From positions 1,116,001 to 1,180,000 of the forward strand of contig NZ_CP023777.1 of NCBI RefSeq assembly GCF_002557795.1: a stretch of DNA of 64,000 nucleotides, in the 5' to 3' direction. The notes below the pieces were generated by a model. The model ran no database searches. It worked only from the letters and a program-made list of their open reading frames with translations, and was not told where the DNA came from. This document shows positions 8,130 to 47,392 of this stretch, in pieces. This stretch comes from Chitinophaga caeni (GTDB lineage: Bacteria > Bacteroidota > Bacteroidia > Chitinophagales > Chitinophagaceae). The translations under genes and the position numbers were made by a program. The first letter of the stretch is position 1, and each line of letters opens with the position of its first letter.

Positions 8130-11100
8130 TTAATTATAACTCAAGGGTTCCATATCTTTTTCCTTCACCGGCGCATACATCTTTTGACGGATGTATCGTT
8201 TGCTAGATTGTTTGCCCCATCCGAATTTCTGCATGATCCTATCCACGATAGCATATACAACAGGAACAACGATCAAGGTTAAGAACATCGAACTGATCAA
8301 ACCTCCGATGATAACCCAGGCCAAACCATTCTTAGTAGAGGCCGTACCACCCGTTGCTAACGCGATCGGCAACATACCGATCACCATCGCGATGGTAGTC
8401 ATCAGGATCGGGCGAAGACGGGCATTGTTCGCATGGATCAAGGCTTCATATGTGCTTTGTCCTTCTTCTTTCATCTGGTTCGTAAAGTCGACCAGGATGA
8501 TGGCATTCTTCGCCACGAGACCGATCAACATGATCACACCCAAGATCGTGAAGATGTTCAAAGTATTATTTGTTAATGCCAAGGCAAGCAAGGCCCCGAT
8601 AATGGATAGCGGGATCGAGAATAATACCACGAAAGGATAAATATAGTTATCATACAGGGCAACCATGATCAGGTATACCATGATGATGGAAATCAACAAG
8701 GCAGTACCCAAGGTGCTGAAGGAATCTCCTTGGTTTTCGGCATCACCGCCGAATACATAAGATACGCCAACAGGTTTGGACATGGTTTCCAAAGCCTTAG
8801 CGAACTCTGCCGTGATGGTACCGGACGGTCTGCCGATCGCTTGGGATTGTACGGAAACAGAAGTACTTTTATCCCGGCGCTCCAAGCGGCTCGGTCCTGA
8901 ACCCTCCGTTACTTCGGCAAACTGTGATAATTTCACCAACTCACCCTTGTTGTTCACGAAAGAAATATTTCTAACATCGTTGATATTTTTCCGATTGAAA
9001 TTATCAAAACGGATGTTGATGTCGTATTCATATTCACCTTGACGGAATTTCACTTTTGAATCGTCCGCCGTTCCGCTGAATGCGGTCTGCATAGTTCCTC
9101 CCACGGTTTCCAAGGTCAGTCCCAATGCACTCATCTTATCACGGTCAACCTGCACATTGATTTCAGGGTTACCGTCTTCAACCGATAATTTAACCTCGCT
9201 CGTACCTTCTATGGTTTGCAGTTTAGCCATGGCTTTCTTTGCGAAGCTCATTACCGTATCCAGGTCGTTACCCATCACAACCAACTCCACCGGCGCTCTT
9301 TGGGCAGTACCCAAGATACTCACGGGGGTTGTTTTAACCTTTACACCGGGAAGTTGCGCTGCCAACTCTTTCTTCACCTTGGTGGCGAAGATATCGGAAG
9401 CGTCATTACGATGTTTTTCATCGACCAACAGGACGGTGATTTCAGATTTATATACAGTAGCCTGCGAAGTACCGAAACCATCTTCACTCGTCTGACCAAC
9501 AGTCGTGATTAACGAAGTCACTTCAGGTTTTTTGCTTAATACCTGTTCGGCCTTCAAAGTGGCTTGGTTCGTTTGTTCCAGGGAAGCATCTTTCGGCAAT
9601 TCCAACATCACGATGAATTGACCGCGGTCACCTTGAGGAATGAACTCACCACCGATATAACCTTTCGCTAACAACATGAATGAAGCTACGAGCATCACGA
9701 TGGAGATAACGATGGTCATCAATTTATGTTTCAACGCCCATTTCAATAATCCGGTCATCCAAGCGGTGAATTTATCCAGTTGGCGTTCGAACCAGAGGAT
9801 GAATTTTTGGAAGATGTTTTTCCCGGTCATATGCTCCAGCTTACCGAAGCGGGAAGACAATAACGGTACGATGGTGAAAGAGGCGAGCAAACTTAACATC
9901 GTGGAAATCATCACCACCACGCAGAACTCTCTCAGGATCTTGGACACCAATTCATTGGTTAACGAGATCGGCAAGAATACCACCACGATTACCAGGGTGA
10001 TCGAAGTAACGGTGAAACCGATTTCCTTCACCCCGTCAAAAGCCGCACGTACCTTATTTTTACCCATCTCCATGTGGCGGTAAATATTCTCCAATACCAC
10101 GATGGCATCATCCACCAATATACCTACTACCAGGGAAAGGCCCAGCAAGCTCATCAGGTTCAGCGAGAAGCCCATGATCTTCATACCGATAAAGGTCGCG
10201 ATCAGGGATGCCGGGATCGAGATCATCACGAACAGGGCGCTTCTCAAACTGTGCAAGAATAACAACATCACGGCAGCCACCAACACGATCGCGATGATCA
10301 AGTCATGAATTACCGAATCTGCCGATTCTAAGGTAAAAGTAGAAGAGTCGTTCGCCACATCGATATGCAAATTACTGGCGGCATATTCCTTTTCCATTTG
10401 CGCGATGGCTTTGTGCATCTCTTCACTTACCACCACTGCGTTGGCATCTGTTTGTTTTTGTACGGATAACGCGATCGCGCTTTTACTGTCTACGCGGGCA
10501 ATCTTTTCGGCGTCTTTATGCGTGTCTTGTACATCGGCAACGTCACCGAGACGGATTTGTGTTCCATCGGGCGTAGTCGTCAGTACGAGATCACGTAATT
10601 GATCCACCGATTTATATTTACCGGCCAAGCGGATCAGGATTTGTTGATCCAAGGTTTTTACTTTACCCGTAGGGAAGTCAAGGTTGGCATTGGTAATGAT
10701 ATTTCTAACCTGTAAAATAGAGAGCTTATACGCTTCCAATTTTTTAGGATCGATATTAATTTGAACTTCCCTTTCTTCACCACCTGTCAATGATATCTGG
10801 GCCACACCCGGTAAACGGGATAATGCAGGTTGAATTTTTTTATCGACCAAGTCGTAAAAAGTCCTGGCATCCATGTTGGCCGTGGCGGCCAAGGTCATGA
10901 TGGGCAAATCATCCAGTGAGAATTTATTTAAGGATGGCGGTTTTGCATCCGTAGGTAAATCAGCCAAGATGGCGTTCACTTTCCGTTGAGCATCTTGCAA
11001 GCCGATATCTACATCGGCATCATTATTTAATTCCACGGTAACCACGGATAAGCTTTCTGAAGATTTAGAAGTAATCTTCTTAATCTTTTCCATGGAAGCC

Positions 11101-41228: not shown

Positions 41229-41236
41229 TAAATAAT
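41229..41236 (+). repeat. Left target-site duplication TAAATAAT
   Basis: Identical to 47303-47310 on the far side of the transposon; the two copies flank the terminal inverted repeats directly. Confidence 0.9.
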
Positions 41237-41262
41237 GGCAACTATATACTTGTTAAACCCAT
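41237..41262 (+). repeat. Left terminal inverted repeat of the IS1595-type transposon
   Basis: 26 bp; 24 positions match the reverse complement of 47277-47302. Similarity continues weakly inward (TTAAATA). Confidence 0.92.
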
Positions 41263-41277
41263 ATCTTAAATATGGGG
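41262..41277 (-). terminator. Weak hairpin after the first XRE gene
   Basis: Stem CCCATAT / ATATGGG (41258-41276) overlaps the inner edge of the left terminal repeat and follows the XRE stop on the minus strand; a short TTTAAC follows. Confidence 0.3.
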
Positions 41278-41281
41278 AAAA

Positions 41282-41521
41282 TTAAGACAATTCATTTCCG
41301 TAAGGAATAATATCATTTGGCGTAAGGTTTAGGGCTATCATTAGTTTGATAACAGTAGTGATTTGGAGGTTGGATTCTCCCTTTTCAAGTTTTTGGACTT
41401 GATTATACTCCATATCAGCCATTAGAGCTAGTTTCCTTTGGCTTAATCCCTGCTTAGTTCTTGCCTCCTTGAATTTAACAGCAATAGCGCCTAATATCTG
41501 CTTATCCAGTAAGTTATTCAT
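41282..41521 (-). CDS. XRE-family transcriptional regulator (transposon passenger)
   Basis: 79 residues, a single Cro/CI-type helix-turn-helix. The HTH reads FKEARTKQGLSQRKLALMADMEYNQVQKLEKGESNLQITTVIKLMIALNL. ATG 41521 (MNNLLDKQ) is preferred over an upstream in-frame codon. A perfect 11-bp palindrome (41551-41574) lies between this gene and the divergent transposase gene, so the protein probably represses itself and the transposase. It sits just inside the left transposon end. Confidence 0.85.
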   Translation of the reverse strand: MNNLLDKQILGAIAVKFKEARTKQGLSQRKLALMADMEYNQVQKLEKGESNLQITTVIKLMIALNLTPNDIIPYGNELS

Positions 41522-41536
41522 ACCTGAAATTTCAGC

Positions 41537-41544
41537 CAAAAATA
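41537..41544 (-). promoter_or_regulatory. -7 box of the first XRE gene
   Basis: Minus-strand TATTTTTG matches TAnnTTTG, 16 nt before the start. The palindrome begins 7 nt upstream of it. Confidence 0.4.
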
Positions 41545-41550
41545 TGAATT

Positions 41551-41574
41551 ATTGACGTATAAATATACGTCAAT
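41551..41574. promoter_or_regulatory. Candidate XRE operator palindrome
   Basis: ATTGACGTATA-AA-TATACGTCAAT, perfect over 24 bp, between the divergent XRE and transposase genes. An isolated half site ATTGACGT recurs at 42883-42890, just upstream of the DUF2158 gene. Confidence 0.65.
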
Positions 41575-41588
41575 TCAATAAATTTTCG

Positions 41589-41596
41589 TACTTTTG
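41589..41596 (+). promoter_or_regulatory. -7 box for the IS1595-type transposase
   Basis: TACTTTTG matches TAnnTTTG, 76 nt before the transposase ATG and 15 nt beyond the palindrome. Confidence 0.4.
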
Positions 41597-41671
41597 TGTA
41601 GCAAAGGCTTCCAAGCCCCGCAAAAATGGTTAGTCCATGATATATAAGAATGGAAATAATCAAATCATTTA

Positions 41672-42625
41672 ATGGATTTAATAGAAGTTATGCACTGTAA
41701 CAATTTATTAGATATAGCGGAAACATTCAGGGATAAAAACGTTTGTCTGGATTACTTAGCTTCAAAGCGGTGGAATGGTAGCGTGTATTGCGTTTTTTGT
41801 GGTTGTAATAATGTGTATACCTTGAAGGGTAAATACAGACGATATAAATGTGGAGATTGTCGCAAACAGTTTTCAGCTATCAAAGGAACTATATTCGAAA
41901 ATAGCCCTATTCATTTGCAGAAATGGTTTATGGCGATTTTCTTGATAACTACTCATAAGAAGGGTATTAGTTCTGTTCAATTAGCGAGTAGTTTAGGGGT
42001 TACCCAAAAGACCGCGTGGTTTATGGCTCAAAGAATACGGTATGCTCTAAAAGTGAAGTCCTTTGACAAAAAGCTGGATGGAGTGATTCAATGCGACGAA
42101 ACATTTGTTGGAGGTAAAAATAAGAACCGTCATGCTCATAAGAAAGTTGCAAATTCACAAGGAAGGAGCTTTAAGGATAAAACACCTGTATTAGGTATGT
42201 TGCATACTGGTGGTCATTTGAGATTAATTGTTATGCCAGATACAGCATCAGCATCTATTCAACCAGCCATAAAGGAACATATTGCAGAAGGTTCAATCAT
42301 AGTGTCAGATGAATGGCTAGGATATAATGGGTTAGATAAAAAGTACTTTCATATTGTTATGGATCACCAACAGAAGGAATTTGTAAGAGGTGCTTTTCAT
42401 ACCAACAGTATAGAAGGATTTTGGGGGTTATTTAAACGCGGTATAATTGGAGTTTATCATTATCTAAGCAGGAAGCATTTACAAAGATATTGTGATGAAT
42501 TTTCTTTTAGATATAACAATAGGTCTATACCCAATAGTTACAAGTTTGAAAGTTGTTTAAATAGTGTGAATTGCAGGCTAACTTATAAGGAGTTGATCAA
42601 TAAAAATCAACCTGCAATTCAGTGA
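41672..42625 (+). CDS. IS1595-family (ISXO2-like) transposase
   Basis: 317 residues. An N-terminal zinc ribbon (CVFCGCNNVYTLKGKYRRYKCGDCRKQF) is followed by an HTH (GISSVQLASSLGVTQKTAWFMAQRIR). The ISXO2 catalytic core has acidic residues in IQCDETFVGGKN and IIVSDEWLGYNG, and the HTNSIEGFWGLFKRGIIG block that provides the Asn and Lys of the DDNK-type active site. It is intact and full length. It should recognise the 26-bp ends at 41237 and 47302 and mobilise the whole 6-kb element. The promoter region carries an XRE-type palindrome. Confidence 0.92.
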   Translation: MDLIEVMHCNNLLDIAETFRDKNVCLDYLASKRWNGSVYCVFCGCNNVYTLKGKYRRYKCGDCRKQFSAIKGTIFENSPIHLQKWFMAIFLITTHKKGISSVQLASSLGVTQKTAWFMAQRIRYALKVKSFDKKLDGVIQCDETFVGGKNKNRHAHKKVANSQGRSFKDKTPVLGMLHTGGHLRLIVMPDTASASIQPAIKEHIAEGSIIVSDEWLGYNGLDKKYFHIVMDHQQKEFVRGAFHTNSIEGFWGLFKRGIIGVYHYLSRKHLQRYCDEFSFRYNNRSIPNSYKFESCLNSVNCRLTYKELINKNQPAIQ

Positions 42626-42658
42626 AAAGCTCTTTGAAATAAGGGAGGATATGAAATT

Positions 42659-42871
42659 TCAATCCTCATCCATGCTTATTAAGGATTCTTCTATGAATGG
42701 TTCGGTATTCTTTCTATGCCCATCAAACCAAGTACACATATATGTACCAGTAAACGATTCTGCAAGAAAATGTGATTTAAGTGATGTAATAGTCATGTTA
42801 GGGCCACCTGATTTAAGTGCCACAATATCTCCTAGCTTAAATTTTGGATTGGTATAGTTGTTATCTGTCAT
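42659..42871 (-). CDS. DUF2158 / YodC-family small protein
   Basis: 70 residues. FKLGDIVALKSGGPNMTI and YMCTWFDGHRKNTEPFIEESL are the two halves of the DUF2158 (YodC-like) fold, an SH3-like small domain of unknown function. It is encoded convergently with the transposase, 33 nt apart. An ATTGACGT half site lies 12 nt upstream of its start, so the first XRE protein may control it too. Genes of this family recur next to ISXO2-type transposases as far as I recall, but this was not checked. Confidence 0.8.
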   Translation of the reverse strand: MTDNNYTNPKFKLGDIVALKSGGPNMTITSLKSHFLAESFTGTYMCTWFDGHRKNTEPFIEESLISMDED

Positions 42872-42882
42872 AATAGCAATAA

Positions 42883-42890
42883 ATTGACGT
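42883..42890 (-). promoter_or_regulatory. Half site of the XRE operator upstream of DUF2158 gene
   Basis: ATTGACGT, identical to each arm of the palindrome at 41551-41574; the other arm is missing. Confidence 0.35.
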
Positions 42891-43061
42891 TAAGATAATT
42901 TAAAAAATAGAATCCTTATCACTATTTAAAAGGTACAGAATTATAATTAATGGTAGTACTTATAGAGAACAATAGTGATATTCAGGAGAAAAGATACAAT
43001 ACTATAGTTTTAAATGATAAGACTGATACAATTGTCATCAATACTCCCAAAGGAGAAGTGT

Positions 43062-43069
43062 GTTTTACA
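43062..43069 (+). repeat. Left target duplication of the nested IS256-type element (GTTTTACA)
   Basis: Repeated exactly at 44400-44407 on the other side of the IS. Confidence 0.88.
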
Positions 43070-44399
43070 GACACTATCTCAAAAACTGTGTAAATTATAA
43101 AAATCGGGGTTTCACTCCGATTTTTTAATTTTAAAGTATATACAGTTTTATGAAGACAGAAGATTTTTTATCAGACGACTTTCTGAAGCAGTTTAAAACG
43201 GCCGATCAACTAAACAATTTCCTGGCCCAGATTCAGAAGCGGGGCATTGAAAAGATGCTGGAAGGCGAACTTGATAGCCATTTAGGCTATGATAAGCATG
43301 AGCCCAATGAAAGTAACAATAGCCGTAATGGGTACGGTAAAAAGAAGATTAAGACCAGCTATGGTGAATCTGAAATAAAAGTTCCCAGGGATCGTGATGC
43401 CAGTTTTAACCCTATGATAGTACCTAAACGCGAAGGAATGGTTCAGGGGCTGGAAGAGATAATAGTGTCTTTTTATGCCAAGGGGATGAGCGTATCTGAC
43501 ATAGAAGAGCAAATAAGGGAAGCCTATAAATTTGACGTTTCCACGGCCACTATCAGCCGCATCACCAGCCGTGTGACTGAAGATATTGTCGCCTGGCAAA
43601 ACCGACCGTTAGAACCGGTTTATCTCATCGTTTGGATGGATGGCATTGTGTTCAAGGTACGGGAGAACAGCAAAGTAGTGAATAAAACCGTCTATATCGC
43701 TGTGGGCCTGAAGCGGGATGGCCTCAAAGAAGTGCTAGGGATGTGGCTGGGTAAGAATGAGTCAGCCGCTTATTGGATGACTGTACTTACTGATCTGAAG
43801 GCCCGTGGCTTGGAAGATATTCTAATAACGGCCACCGATAATCTTAATGGCTTCACTCAGACTATCAAATCAGTGTTCCCTCAGTCTGCCACCCAGGTTT
43901 GTGTCGTACACCAGGTTCGTAACAGCTGCCGCTATGTTGCCTGGAAAGATAAAAAGGAATTTACCGCAGACATGAAAGATGTTTATGCCGCACCGACCAG
44001 GCAAGCTGCGATGGCGGCTCTTGATGCCCTGGATGCTAAGTGGAGCGCAAAGTATGCCTACGCCATCAAAAGCTGGCGTGAAAACTGGGAGGAACTGACT
44101 GTCTTTTTTGACTTCCCCCTGGAGATCAGGCAGATCATCTACACAACAAATCTCATCGAAAATCTAAACGGTAAGATTAGAAAATATACCAAAAACAAGC
44201 TATCCTTCCCTACAGATGAAGCCGTGCTTAAATCCGTATACCTGGCTTTGCGGGAAGTATCAAAAAAATGGACCATGCCCATTAGAAACTGGGGCATGAT
44301 CCTGAATCAGTTTTTAACTATTTTTGATAAAAGGGTGAGAATCTAATTATTACTCTGATTCCCCGATTTTTAAGTTTACACACTTATTGAAATAGTCCC
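43070..44399 (+). mobile_element. Nested IS256-family insertion sequence
   Basis: 1330 bp. The terminal inverted repeats are 43070-43094 and 44375-44399, 20 of 25 positions matching. They are flanked by perfect 8-bp duplications GTTTTACA. A single intact transposase gene runs left to right. It inserted into a passenger gene of the larger transposon, so it is the younger event. Its base composition is closer to the chromosome than to the A/T-rich host transposon. Confidence 0.92.
43150..44346 (+). CDS. IS256-family transposase
   Basis: 398 residues, the normal length for IS256 transposases (mutator type). The N-terminal region has [38 protein letters not shown]-type acidic residues are in [21 protein letters not shown], and the Glu in [19 protein letters not shown]. 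The reading frame is intact, so it is probably active. The gene starts 80 nt inside the left IS end. Confidence 0.95.
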
Positions 44400-44407
44400 G
44401 TTTTACA
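44400..44407 (+). repeat. Right target duplication of the nested IS256-type element
   Basis: GTTTTACA, identical to 43062-43069. Confidence 0.88.
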
Positions 44408-44534
44408 TTAGAGCAGTTAATGAAATATGCTACTAAATTCGCCCAAACTTTCCATCATTGCGAGCTTAAGTCCTATAAATTCAACGTTTATAAAAGATAT
44501 GATACTGATTTGAAAGCAACTGTTTATGGATGCT

Positions 44535-44879
44535 TTAGTCATTGATAGTTGACATTAAAGACTCAAAATCTGCCTCATATCCTTTATTTTCCTTCCATTG
44601 AATAAGTGGTTGCCTTTCTTTATTCTTTTTTATCTCACAAAGGGAATAGAAAATAATATTTTCCAACTTAGATTTGGGATTAGTCAATATAAACCAAAGT
44701 TCGTCATGAGTTTTATCCGAAATAACTAAAAAAGAGGTTTCTTCATTAGAACGAATGTCGCAACCAGCAGAAAGAAAGAGTTTAACCAAATTCTTCCGTA
44801 TCAAAAAAAGTTCATCTAATTTATTAATTCTAGTATAAGAAAAGAAGAAAAAGTTCTTGTCTTTATTTGCATTAGCCAT
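44535..44879 (-). CDS. Transposon passenger protein of unknown function
   Basis: 114 residues starting MANANKDKNFFFFSYTRINKLDELFLIRKNLVKLF, with a conserved-looking middle SFLVISDKTHDELWFILTNPKS and an acidic C-terminal tail. An open frame continues upstream to 45056, but that extension runs antisense through the small gene at 44947-45120, so ATG 44879 is preferred. No domain is recognised. It overlaps the interrupted gene's end by 11 nt. Confidence 0.5.
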   Translation of the reverse strand: MANANKDKNFFFFSYTRINKLDELFLIRKNLVKLFLSAGCDIRSNEETSFLVISDKTHDELWFILTNPKSKLENIIFYSLCEIKKNKERQPLIQWKENKGYEADFESLMSTIND

Positions 44880-44946
44880 ATAGAGTAAAATAGGTTTTAA
44901 ATACCTTAAATTAGCAAAAAAAACCGGGATACCAAACAAATAATGA

Positions 44947-45120
44947 ATGCCTAGTAAATCAAAACATACCAAACCTTCAAATGCTGATAATAGTGAGAAT
45001 AAAGACAATTTCTCCCTGTTTGAGGAAGCTATAAAGAAGATAGCCAATACTCCCAAAGAGGACGTAGAAAAGGCTGTAAAAGAGGATAAAAAAAAGGAAA
45101 GGAATAAAAAGAATGGCTAG
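44947..45120 (+). CDS. Very small lysine-rich passenger protein (57 residues)
   Basis: MPSKSKHTKPSNADNSENKD is followed by NFSLFEEAIKKIANTPKEDV and a Lys/Glu-rich tail. The amphipathic middle and strongly charged ends look like real coding sequence, and the TPKxDV pattern is familiar from small conserved Bacteroidota proteins of unknown function. The frame is open from its ATG to TAG and sits between two minus-strand genes with almost no spare sequence. It is too short for most ORF callers. Confidence 0.6.
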   Translation: MPSKSKHTKPSNADNSENKDNFSLFEEAIKKIANTPKEDVEKAVKEDKKKERNKKNG

Positions 45121-45126
45121 TAAAAG

Positions 45127-45942
45127 CTATCCCCGTAGAAAAACATTCTTTTTAACCCATAAACAGAAATAAAATATCGGCCATGCTACTAAATAGCAAA
45201 TAATACTGCTAACTGTAGTAACCCATACCGCCCAACTAACAGAAGGTGAATAAATTATGATGGGATACAAGGAAATCATGAAAATTGTGCAGGAAATAAT
45301 ACCAATCCACAATTTTCTTAATTGTATGCGTTGTTCGTCTGCTTGTTCATAAATAGTTTCAATGCCTTTCTTTTGGGGTGTTACGACCATTGATGGCTCT
45401 CCGTTCCGGGAATCTATTAAAAAGGAAAATTCCAATTTTGCTTTTCTATTTAAATAAGGAACTTCATAAATCCTATTTCTAGTAATATAATCTATCCCAT
45501 TTTGTAATGCTCTTTGTTCAGCAGGACTTCTTTCTCTTGTAACATCGGAAAAATCAGTAAAAACGGCATTGAAGGTATTGTTAAATTCTTTCTCGAATTT
45601 CAATGCTCTATATGTATTATTCTGCAATAATTGAGCAGAGTTCTCAAAAATAGTAGCACCTTCATTGACGGTAAGATGTATTGAAAAAGCATCCAAATCT
45701 ACGTTATTATCATTTTTCAATTCGAGATACACAGAATATAAATTGTTACTTACTTGACCATTGTATAATATTTGAATATTTCCCCCTGGTACTTGTCCTC
45801 CCAATGCTACATGACGAACAATGAGCTTTTCCCGTAAAAAAATAAGCCTATTTTTATATCGCTCGAAGAATAATCCACTAATAATTCCCAAAAAGAAAGT
45901 GAGTATTGGTGCAATTAAGGGAATCGGAATGTTAATATTCAT
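45127..45942 (-). CDS. Membrane protein of unknown function (transposon passenger)
   Basis: 271 residues. One N-terminal transmembrane helix (IPIPLIAPILTFFLGIISGLFF, about 5-25) is followed by a soluble beta-rich domain (about 35-200; IQILYNGQVSNNLYSVYLELKNDNNVDLDAFSIHLTV). Two C-terminal helices (IGIISCTIFMISLYPIIIY and WAVWVTTVSSIICYLVAWPIFYFCLW) complete it. The soluble part looks immunoglobulin-like but no family is recognised. ATG 45942 is preferred over the upstream in-frame start. It is the largest cargo gene and a candidate for the element's selectable or defensive function. Confidence 0.6.
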   Translation of the reverse strand: MNINIPIPLIAPILTFFLGIISGLFFERYKNRLIFLREKLIVRHVALGGQVPGGNIQILYNGQVSNNLYSVYLELKNDNNVDLDAFSIHLTVNEGATIFENSAQLLQNNTYRALKFEKEFNNTFNAVFTDFSDVTRERSPAEQRALQNGIDYITRNRIYEVPYLNRKAKLEFSFLIDSRNGEPSMVVTPQKKGIETIYEQADEQRIQLRKLWIGIISCTIFMISLYPIIIYSPSVSWAVWVTTVSSIICYLVAWPIFYFCLWVKKNVFLRG

Positions 45943-45991
45943 AGTGGGGTATTTAAATCCTTGCAATTATATAAAAGAAATAACAATTAAC

Positions 45992-46022
45992 AAAAAAGCC
46001 GTTAAACTAATAACGGCTTTTT
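45992..46022 (-). terminator. Strong terminator after the 82-aa gene
   Basis: Stem AAAAAGCCGTTA / TAACGGCTTTTT with a 6-nt loop and a U6 run on the minus strand, directly downstream of the stop at 46025. Confidence 0.85.
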
Positions 46023-46024
46023 GC

Positions 46025-46273
46025 TTAGTTGCTAAAAATCCCTACTCTGAATTGATACATTAGATACAGCATGTTGATACATGTTAATATCCAACCAGCT
46101 ATCCTTAATCCTTTACCCTTTAGGTTTTCATTTTCCTTTAACCGATAGTAAGAAACGATTCCGGTGATAAAACCTACAGGAATAAACAGAATAGGAAGAA
46201 TAGCAAACCCTCCTAAACCAGCCGCAAATGTCATAATTGCAAATGGGTCTGTTTTTTTCTGCTCTTGTTCCAT
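46025..46273 (-). CDS. Small DUF4190-like membrane protein
   Basis: 82 residues with two membrane helices (about 12-40 and 60-78). KTDPFAIMTFAAGLGGFAILPILFIPVGFITGIVSYYRLKEN resembles the N-terminal part of DUF4190 proteins, which often flank other membrane modules. It ends in a strong terminator. Start and stop fit tightly between neighbours (3 nt to the preceding 55-aa gene), so the two are co-transcribed. Confidence 0.6.
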   Translation of the reverse strand: MEQEQKKTDPFAIMTFAAGLGGFAILPILFIPVGFITGIVSYYRLKENENLKGKGLRIAGWILTCINMLYLMYQFRVGIFSN

Positions 46274-46276
46274 AGA

Positions 46277-46444
46277 TTAGTTGATTTTAGAAACAGTTCT
46301 AACACTAGCATCTGGATATTGGGCTTGTGCGATCCTCTTAGCTTCAAGATCAGATGTAGCTTCAATGATTGGGGTAATGGTACGGGAAATGCCGTGGTTA
46401 TCCTTAATTACCACCATTACGGAGAATTTGTGCGTGGTTGCCAT
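46277..46444 (-). CDS. Very small passenger protein (55 residues)
   Basis: MATTHKFSVMVVIKDNHGIS then RTITPIIEATSDLEAKRIAQ and AQYPDASVRTVSKIN. The reading frame is open from ATG 46444 to TAA and has a clear beta-beta-alpha-beta pattern (VMVVI, TITPIIEA, AKRIAQAQ, VRTVSK). It is tightly coupled to the following membrane gene. Its promoter (TATATTTG, 46472-46465 on the minus strand) faces the second XRE gene across a palindrome. Confidence 0.65.
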   Translation of the reverse strand: MATTHKFSVMVVIKDNHGISRTITPIIEATSDLEAKRIAQAQYPDASVRTVSKIN

Positions 46445-46474
46445 ATGTAAGAGATTTTATCTTCCAAATATAAT

Positions 46475-46492
46475 ACACATACCTGTATGTGT
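46475..46492. promoter_or_regulatory. Candidate operator palindrome between the 55-aa gene and second XRE gene
   Basis: ACACATAC-CT-GTATGTGT, perfect 8-bp arms, two nucleotides upstream of the minus-strand TATATTTG -7 box. It is likely bound by the adjacent XRE protein. Confidence 0.55.
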
Positions 46493-46520
46493 GAAATATT
46501 TTTTCAGATGAAGATTCTTT

Positions 46521-46540
46521 GTGGTACTAAAAAGTACCAC
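46521..46540 (+). promoter_or_regulatory. Second palindrome upstream of the XRE start
   Basis: GTGGTACT-AAAA-AGTACCAC, perfect 8-bp arms with a 4-nt loop, ending 2 nt before the XRE start codon. It could be a second operator or an RNA hairpin over the ribosome site. Confidence 0.5.
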
Positions 46541-46542
46541 CA

Positions 46543-46785
46543 ATGGCCGAAACCTTGCATAGCCCAATAGAACAGTATGTAATCGATAAAGTAAAAGAGA
46601 AAAGAATAGAAAAAGGCTATTCCCAAAAGGAACTAGCCTATATGCTTGATGTTTCAGTAGGATTTATTGGTGATGTAGAGAACCCTAAGTATAGAGCTAA
46701 ATATAACCTCAATCACCTTAATGAACTTGCCAAGATATTTGAATGCTCTCCTAAAGATTTTCTTCCTGACAATCCTATTGTATGA
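46543..46785 (+). CDS. Second XRE-family regulator (transposon passenger)
   Basis: 80 residues, one Cro/CI-type HTH (VKEKRIEKGYSQKELAYMLDVSVGFIGDVENPKYRAKYNLNHLNELAKIFECSPKDFLP). Two different palindromes lie directly upstream, which suggests autoregulation and control of the divergent 55-aa/82-aa genes. It is unrelated in detail to the first XRE gene of this element. The start follows the second palindrome by 2 nt, so translation control is possible. Confidence 0.85.
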   Translation: MAETLHSPIEQYVIDKVKEKRIEKGYSQKELAYMLDVSVGFIGDVENPKYRAKYNLNHLNELAKIFECSPKDFLPDNPIV

Positions 46786-46834
46786 TATTTTAATCACATA
46801 TAAATCATATACGGGAATGTAGTATATTTATTAA

Positions 46835-47137
46835 ATGAAAAATAATAACATACTCGCAAAGATTCGTATTCAGCATACACAAGGCGCTGTGATAGCTTCT
46901 TTTACCGATTTTGAGATTTTTAAAGAAATTTCTCTTAAAGAAAACAAAGAGTTTAATAATTGGGAAATTGGTGTAAATGATAAAATCGGAATAGAAGGAA
47001 AAGAATATACGGTTAAATCGATTTTTACAATAATCCATAATGAAACAGTCAAAAATTCTGGTCAATATGGAATGAGTGCAGTTGTAGTTGATGAAAGGAA
47101 TGAATACAATTTTGAGATTGTATATTACGTTGAATGA
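46835..47137 (+). CDS. Passenger protein of unknown function (100 residues)
   Basis: A beta-rich sequence (NILAKIRIQHTQGAVIASFTDFEIFKEISLKENKEFNNWEIGVNDKIGIEGKEYTVKSIFTIIHNETV and onward). The acidic, strand-rich pattern and DKIGIEGKEYTVKSIF segment suggest a small SH3- or OB-like fold, but no family is assigned. It follows the second XRE gene on the same strand by 49 nt and is the last cargo gene before the right transposon end. Confidence 0.55.
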   Translation: MKNNNILAKIRIQHTQGAVIASFTDFEIFKEISLKENKEFNNWEIGVNDKIGIEGKEYTVKSIFTIIHNETVKNSGQYGMSAVVVDERNEYNFEIVYYVE

Positions 47138-47237
47138 TTCAAGCTATTTCTTTTTACAAAAGTGGCTAAATGAAAATAAGGATGGAATTAAGTGGAGCTA
47201 ATTAGAAAAGCAGTATTAACTATTTATTATAAATACT

Positions 47238-47269
47238 AAATGGACTGATACATTCAGTCCATTTTTTTA
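47238..47269 (+). terminator. Rho-independent terminator inside the right transposon end
   Basis: Stem AAATGGACTGA / TCAGTCCATTT with a 5-nt loop and a T8 run, 8 nt before the right terminal repeat. It insulates cargo transcription from the chromosome. Confidence 0.85.
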
Positions 47270-47276
47270 TTTAATG

Positions 47277-47302
47277 ATGGGTTAAACAAGTATATAGTTA
47301 CC
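47277..47302 (-). repeat. Right terminal inverted repeat of the IS1595-type transposon
   Basis: 26 bp; reverse complement matches 41237-41262 at 24 positions. Confidence 0.92.
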
Positions 47303-47310
47303 TAAATAAT
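47303..47310 (+). repeat. Right target-site duplication TAAATAAT
   Basis: Identical to 41229-41236; lies between the transposon end and the displaced hairpin. Confidence 0.9.
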
Positions 47311-47311
47311 T

Positions 47312-47377
47312 AAAAAACCATCTTGTTTGCTGATTACGAACTTGTAAATTCGTAAGCGGTTCTCAAGATGGTTTTTT
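47312..47377 (+). terminator. Displaced SNF2 terminator, now upstream of the rhomboid gene
   Basis: Outer stem AAAAAACCATCTTG (47312-47325) pairs with CAAGATGGTTTTTT (47364-47377); an inner stem TTACGAA / TTCGTAA sits in the loop. The U-run fits a terminator. If the transposon and one TSD are removed, this hairpin starts about 44 nt after the SNF2 stop, a normal terminator position. It now ends 15 nt before the rhomboid ATG. Confidence 0.7.
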
Positions 47378-47392
47378 ATTCAATAGTAAAAT

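Follow-up and report, generated by a model that had tools for sequence, protein, structure and literature searches.

The IS1595 family of insertion sequences (IS), whose transposases combine a DDE_Tnp_IS1595 domain with an N-terminal zinc ribbon, is said to go back to Siguier et al. in 2009. According to one article, its members usually create 8-bp target duplications and contain a single transposase gene, and the zinc ribbon is present in all groups except IS1016 (PMC8101967). A recent 712-bp element of the family likewise prefers A/T-rich 8-bp duplications. MTnSag1 and tISCpe8 have an IS1595-family transposase, 25-bp ends, and 8-bp duplications, carry other genes, and are treated in PMC5704250 as integrative mobilizable elements; tISCpe8 carries lincomycin resistance, according to the same article. 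Transporter IS (tIS), as PMC9330008 and PMC7986276 define them, have an IS-type transposase and passenger genes between their ends. Since MTnSag1, tISCpe8, and the tIS concept are in print, the type of element is already known. Here, we describe such an element from a 64-kb stretch of the genome of Chitinophaga caeni (contig NZ_CP023777.1; the whole stretch is referred to as the window). The element is nearly certain to be a transposon. It is, with high probability, a passenger-carrying IS1595 unit transposon from a set of Chitinophaga elements that combine a fixed framework with exchangeable cargo genes.

The C. caeni element resembles the IS1595 family in its transposase domains, GG-ended repeats, 8-bp duplications, and A/T-rich targets. 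Whereas a single gene is described as usual for the family, all sized members of the branch studied here exceed the length that a lone transposase gene would need. With MTnSag1 and tISCpe8, the element shares the transposase family, 8-bp duplications, and extra genes; its cargo, however, is modular and gave no match to a resistance gene or a relaxase family. Passengers are also common to the Chitinophaga elements and the tIS concept, to which the former add a conserved skeleton, exchange slots, and swaps of regulators together with palindromes. The literature listings, abstract openings, and passages covered contained no description of this transposase branch or of a Chitinophaga family with exchange slots.

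Ends, target duplication, and transposase

The element is delimited by a left terminal inverted repeat at window positions 41237–41262 (forward strand; GGCAACTATATACTTGTTAAACCCAT) and a right one at 47277–47302 (reverse strand). The two are inverted copies complementary at 24 of 26 nucleotides (92%), and both begin with GG (GGC and GGT). The 8-bp target duplication TAAATAAT lies directly outside each end, at 41229–41236 and 47303–47310. The end pattern, with the third base left open and up to three mismatches allowed, occurs at two places in the 5.28-Mb single-contig genome, both of which are the ends of this element, and a control pattern gave 0 matches in the same search.

The transposase (317 residues, 41672–42625, forward strand) is intact. 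It contains a full-length DDE_Tnp_IS1595 domain (Pfam 2.2e-41; NCBIfam NF033547, 206 bits against a cut-off of 75) and an N-terminal Zn_ribbon_IS1595 (PF12760, 2.4e-8, 34.2 bits against a cut-off of 25.4). At least 97% of 58 aligned sequences, among them that of the window, share residues D142, D213, N245, E248, and K255. The gene is single-copy in the genome, where the second match is 23% identical over part of its length. The element thus displays the features of IS1595 membership: the DDE domain with catalytic residues, the zinc ribbon, the 8-bp duplication, and GG-ended repeats. A strict insertion sequence holds transposition genes alone between its ends. Here, about ten passenger genes are present, and several are under purifying selection; the element is therefore a unit transposon or tIS.

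An earlier reading of the window, made from its letters only (the sequence-only reading), had placed the ends and the 8-bp duplication where we find them, around an intact ISXO2-like (IS1595) transposase. It had also listed about ten passenger genes, including two repressors and a DUF2158 protein, and the open reading frames and Pfam matches (helix-turn-helix, HTH, for the repressors) agree with it. Its 6.07-kb unit corresponds to the 6066 bp between the duplications. However, 1330 bp of this span belong to a separate IS256-family insertion with a target duplication of its own, which that reading did not mention. Once the inner insertion sequence is discounted, the transposon itself measures about 4.73 kb (4728 bp after subtraction of the nested element and its extra duplication).

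By analogy with the IS1595 family, the single DDE transposase would recognise the 26-bp GG-ended repeats and insert the whole unit into A/T-rich DNA through an 8-bp staggered cut. The ends and duplications are observed, and the chemistry is that presumed for the family.

Related elements in Chitinophaga

A transposase match is present in 29 of 60 Chitinophaga genomes, C. caeni included; apart from its own, one match exceeds 60% identity (89%) and one reaches 58%. The transposase of the C. terrae element is 95% identical to that of the window, and that of the C. niastensis element 58%. Elements with both ends matched were delimited in C. terrae (4946 bp, duplication ATTATTTT), C. niastensis (5254 bp, AAAAATAA), and genome G084 (3271 bp, AATTTTAA). 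In genome G011, the two ends are on separate contigs, the left one close to where contig C9 stops and the right one close to where contig C1 begins, and TTTAATTA flanks the outside of each. All four further elements have a pair of matching ends, each pair with a distinct 8-bp duplication made up of A and T only, so that five Chitinophaga elements carry five different duplications. A search of seven genomes with the end pattern found two ends in G011, G026, and G084 and two plus a solo one in G093; G033, G044, and G021 contained none. The five elements with their five duplications strongly support a cargo-carrying IS1595 transposon. Relatives with differing cargo, for which the sequence-only reading proposed to look, are present in the four further genomes.

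The framework shared by the elements is composed of two regulators and two small proteins. Regulator 1 (XRE-type, 79 residues from ATG, 41282–41521, reverse strand, Pfam HTH_3 2e-11) is divergent from the transposase and stands beside it in four of the five elements, the exception being C. niastensis. Relatives of the 57-residue protein p57 (44947–45120, forward strand) and the 55-residue protein p55 (46277–46444, reverse strand) occur in all five. Regulator 2 (XRE-type, 80 residues, 46543–46785, forward strand), divergent from p55, is of the window type in four, C. terrae being the exception.

The cargo is built as a skeleton with slots, in which p57 is combined with a variable divergent partner, while p55 precedes a variable gene X and faces regulator 2 across a palindrome. 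The head-to-head partner of p57 is a 114-residue protein in the window (44535–44879, reverse strand), which has a predicted ferredoxin-like fold and is distantly related to two proteins of the C. niastensis element. In C. terrae, the partner is a 115-residue protein with a relative in G011; in C. niastensis, it is a 105-residue protein, and in G084, a DUF2158 protein. What gene X encodes depends on the element: the product has hydrophobic stretches, is TPR-like, or resembles a lipoprotein. In the window, it encodes an 82-residue protein (46025–46273, reverse strand) with one long hydrophobic stretch and a 93% identical relative in G044. In C. terrae and C. niastensis, the corresponding genes encode two related proteins of about 300 residues; the former has a TPR match below the cut-off and hydrophobic stretches, and the latter neither above the threshold. 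The G084 and G011 elements have a 100-residue protein with a lipobox-like motif, 75% identical between the two.

The variable slot at the right end contains a 100-residue protein in the window (46835–47137, forward strand; it matches no family in Pfam or NCBIfam) and, in C. terrae, a 52-residue gene followed by a GNAT-domain protein. A 99-residue relative of the 114-residue window protein and a 114-residue frame are its other contents, and no such gene fits in G084. A terminator-like hairpin follows the 82-residue gene (45993–46022, reverse strand). Its core, GCCGTTA..TAACGGC, is present in a single copy in the window and in each of the loci of C. terrae, G084, and G011, and comes after the p55-X pair wherever the order is readable. 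The remaining window cargo includes a 70-residue DUF2158 protein (42659–42871, reverse strand, Pfam 9.6e-15; 42% identical relative in locus L145) and a variable 271-residue protein (45127–45942, reverse strand) with hydrophobic stretches at both ends. Mosaicism was also sought in synonymous divergence between the window and C. niastensis elements. Third positions were 43–55% identical in all three genes compared; therefore, module exchange is argued from gene content. The Chitinophaga set provides a small comparable group in which the fixed skeleton and the exchangeable genes can be told apart.

Several observations count in part against the transposon reading. The pairing of duplications in G011 is indirect, because the element is divided between two contig ends. 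The C. terrae genome contains a solo IS1595 end with one mismatch and no partner (G093:C49:6511-6534), which is probably a remnant or a decayed element. In addition, p55, found exclusively in Chitinophaga genomes, is also present in three in which no ends were detected (G033, G044, and G021), in two of them beside a regulator. In G044, p55, the 82-residue gene, and regulator 2 (L147:7662-8410) lie 1–2 kb from a serine recombinase gene (9423–10985, Resolvase 4.2e-30). In G021, the p55 region (L148:7998-8162) is equally 1–2 kb from a serine recombinase (9778–10194), a fragment that scores below the cut-off. Since p55 lies near serine recombinase genes in these genomes, its module may ride other mobile elements too. 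Near p55 of G033, a Panacea-domain gene and a 168-residue neighbour (L144:6592-7603) form a possible toxin-antitoxin pair.

An empty site, which the sequence-only reading had suggested looking for, was seen neither for the window insertion nor for that in G011, and this is a further point against the transposon reading. The right-hand neighbour of the window element, which looks like a rhomboid-type protein, was sought in 40 genomes including its own and reached at most 45% identity elsewhere among the listed matches, so there is no ortholog with which to compare the insertion place. No genome was found that keeps the cargo at this place and lacks the transposase, in a comparison where the 39 other genomes hold no close ortholog of the neighbour. 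The right-hand neighbour in G011 matched in 67 of 79 genomes. Fifteen of these loci were compared; one is its own, and the 14 others lacked the left-hand neighbours within about 1 kb.

Passenger genes in the wider transposase branch

The branch was sampled as the best 80 of 566 confirmed relatives from genomes and the best 80 of 132 from viral contigs. Ends matching at 16 or more of 22 positions and an exact 8-bp duplication were detected for 55 of the 80 genome relatives, against 1 of 394 control pairs of mismatched flanks, and for 45 of the 80 viral-contig relatives, against 0 of 394. A chance origin of ends and duplication in the C. caeni element was considered and is ruled out by these control pairs and by the 0 matches of the control pattern. 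The duplications were 93% A/T in the genome set and 76% in the viral set.

The sized elements span 2014–7063 bp in the genome set and 1485–5946 bp in the viral set; none is shorter than 1300 bp, and six viral ones are below 1700 bp. The sequence-only reading regarded most IS1595 members as about 1 kb long and the C. caeni element as unusual. That does not apply within this branch, where none of the sized members (n = 55 and 45) is below 1485 bp. A further 25 genome and 35 viral loci, without ends, were not sizable, and short members may be among them. The lengths suggest that the carriage of passengers is the rule in this branch, within a family whose members are usually described as having a single gene.

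The cargo was surveyed with a wider end search, in which 58 of 79 loci gave ends; together with the window, they make up 59 elements of 2014–8997 bp. Locus L102 was omitted, as its best pairs did not have family-like ends. Representatives (128 of 150 proteins of at least 100 residues, the window excluded) were scanned, and the 25 commonest families were listed. Thirty of the 59 elements carry a protein of a P63C, RhuM, KilA-N, N6 or D12 methyltransferase/restriction, or DUF6036 nucleotidyltransferase cluster. About half of the sized elements thus hold cargo of a restriction, phage-type regulator, or nucleotidyltransferase class.

Ten loci are from Streptococcus (L059, L060, L066, L071, L076, L080, L081, L082, L091, and L101). 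They share a P63C-cluster protein, a 95-residue protein, and a DUF6036-cluster protein. Large opposite-strand frames are present in nine of the ten, and a restriction/methyltransferase cluster in eight, some of which have two or three frames.

Regulators, putative operators, and selection

A palindrome with 11-bp arms and a 2-bp centre, ATTGACGTATA-AA-TATACGTCAAT, is located between regulator 1 and the transposase (41551–41574), and is a putative operator. Arms of at least 10 bp arose in 3 of 400 simulated stretches. A second putative operator, ACACATAC-CT-GTATGTGT, lies between p55 and regulator 2 (46475–46492); this palindrome reads ACACATACCTGTATGTGT, and arms of at least 8 bp arose in 4 of 400 simulated stretches. 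The ACACATACCTGTATGTGT site is kept, with at most one change, in five loci with the window-type regulator 2. In C. terrae and G033, which have a different regulator, the palindrome GTTGTCTTAAAAGACAAC stands in its place; their alternative regulators are 88% identical to each other, and that of C. terrae is 31% identical to the window's over 59 residues. Since the palindrome changes with regulator 2, the two were exchanged together.

We infer that the two XRE proteins bind these putative operators and likely provide the regulation of the element. Regulator 1 would bind the palindrome between its own gene and the transposase and so hold transposition down. All four elements with regulator 1 retain its palindrome. 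The G084 copy is imperfect, and the operators are recognised as palindromes alone, which both speak against this proposal.

The ratio of nonsynonymous to synonymous divergence (dN/dS), reported for pairs with finite dS, does not exceed 0.174. It is 0.025–0.059 for the transposase, 0.015–0.100 for regulator 1 (one pair with saturated dS omitted), 0.058–0.095 for p57 (among three), 0.063–0.174 for p55 (two saturated pairs omitted), 0.026–0.044 for regulator 2 (eight of ten pairs saturated and omitted), and 0.039 for the 82-residue protein. These low values make the small frames look like real, constrained genes.

Alternatively, the cargo could have no coherent function and consist of decaying genes acquired by chance, with the transposase alone under selection. 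The passenger gene split by the IS256 element is in keeping with decay, as are the frameshift of p55 in G044 and a protein search in which the 271- and 114-residue proteins matched only themselves. Strong purifying selection at finite dS on p55, p57, both regulators, and the 82-residue protein speaks against it, as does that on p55 in G033, a genome without ends, and the change of the palindrome along with its regulator. We regard the chance-acquired cargo as quite improbable.

Possible functions of the cargo

Apart from the two HTH regulators and the DUF2158 protein, the window cargo matched no Pfam family. The 271-, 114-, 100-, 82-, 57-, and 55-residue proteins have no function in Pfam, NCBIfam, PADLOC, or PHROGs, and PADLOC models gave HTH cross-matches and weak DUF2158 matches alone to the ten window proteins. 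Because databases offer no function, a defence or persistence role is drawn from analogy with the wider branch. On this analogy, the chance is somewhat short of even that the small regulated cassettes serve the persistence of the element or the protection of its host, in the manner of exclusion or defence; among the readings of the cargo, this is the one we prefer.

Several features of the survey weigh against such a role. The named cargo clusters are absent from 29 of the 59 elements, among them those of the window, L024, and L025. Ten of the 30 elements that do (10 of 59 overall) are the similar Streptococcus elements, which inflates the shares by cargo class. Each cluster is named from one scanned representative; the P63C cluster includes a 152-residue protein without a P63C match, and one large Streptococcus gene (L060) has no Pfam match. 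The lack of a database function for the six window proteins points in the same direction.

It is also conceivable, although rather doubtful, that p55 and p57 are docking points or triggers for interchangeable effectors, each p55 cassette having a regulator that is swapped along with its operator, and that the transposon spreads an arsenal for exclusion or defence. The effectors would be the proteins with hydrophobic stretches, the TPR-like and lipoprotein-like proteins, and the ferredoxin-fold protein, which might be a Cas2-like nuclease. The predicted fold of p55 (predicted local distance difference test score of 90) is most like that of ribosomal protein LX/eL20. Phage T7 Gp2 and the epsilon subunit of RNA polymerase come further down the ranking, and none of the similarities is significant. 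Because of these likenesses, p55 may act through the host RNA polymerase or ribosome. Proteins p55 and p57, with their partners, are testable candidates for a new element-borne system.

Small genes arranged in pairs, alongside XRE regulators and palindromes, are likewise compatible with an addiction load of the toxin-antitoxin kind. In this view, loss of the element would leave cells to be killed or slowed by p57 and its partner, or by p55 and the next gene, with the XRE regulators as antitoxin-type repressors. The GNAT-domain protein behind the 52-residue gene of C. terrae fits this explanation, as does the Panacea-domain (SocA-like antitoxin) gene near p55 in G033. Nevertheless, neither p55 nor p57 has a family match in Pfam, NCBIfam, or PADLOC, the HTH regulators score under the curated cut-offs of the antitoxin models, and no toxin family was found among the window proteins. 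Several of the variable genes encode hydrophobic stretches or a motif resembling a lipobox, which sets them apart from most type II toxins. We consider addiction rather unlikely.

The transposase family and the 8-bp duplications are common to the element and to MTnSag1 and tISCpe8, whose ends are 25 bp long. The element could thus be an integrative mobilizable element whose origin of transfer (oriT) is used in trans by a conjugative element. The scanned window proteins contained no relaxase or resistance family, in a scan that did not extend to oriT, and weak HTH matches to the MobT model were far below the cut-off. Such mobilization is highly unlikely.

Nested insertion sequence and flanking sequence

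The nested IS256-family insertion sequence (1330 bp, 43070–44399, forward strand) has similar ends and encodes a Mutator-type transposase (43150–44346; NF033543, 419 bits against a cut-off of 150). It is flanked by the 8-bp duplication GTTTTACA at 43062–43069 and 44400–44407; IS256 elements have flanking duplications of 8–9 bp. With the IS256 family, it shares the transposase type and the duplication, and as a separate, later insertion it does not belong to the transposon proper.

The insertion splits a small passenger gene. The left piece (42950–43069, forward strand) is 53% identical over 38 columns to a 69-residue protein of L144, and the right piece (44402–44545, forward strand) weakly resembles the stretch that comes next in that protein (7 of 20). 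A second full-length copy of the IS256 element in the genome covers exactly these 1330 bases, with a reported identity of 100%, and shorter pieces are also present. Three partial copies are grouped within about 11 kb of the chromosome (G000:C1:4927017-4937799).

Directly after the right target duplication, positions 47311–47378 of the window contain an imperfect inverted repeat with 33-nucleotide arms (79%), ending in T, which is perhaps the terminator of the adjoining gene.

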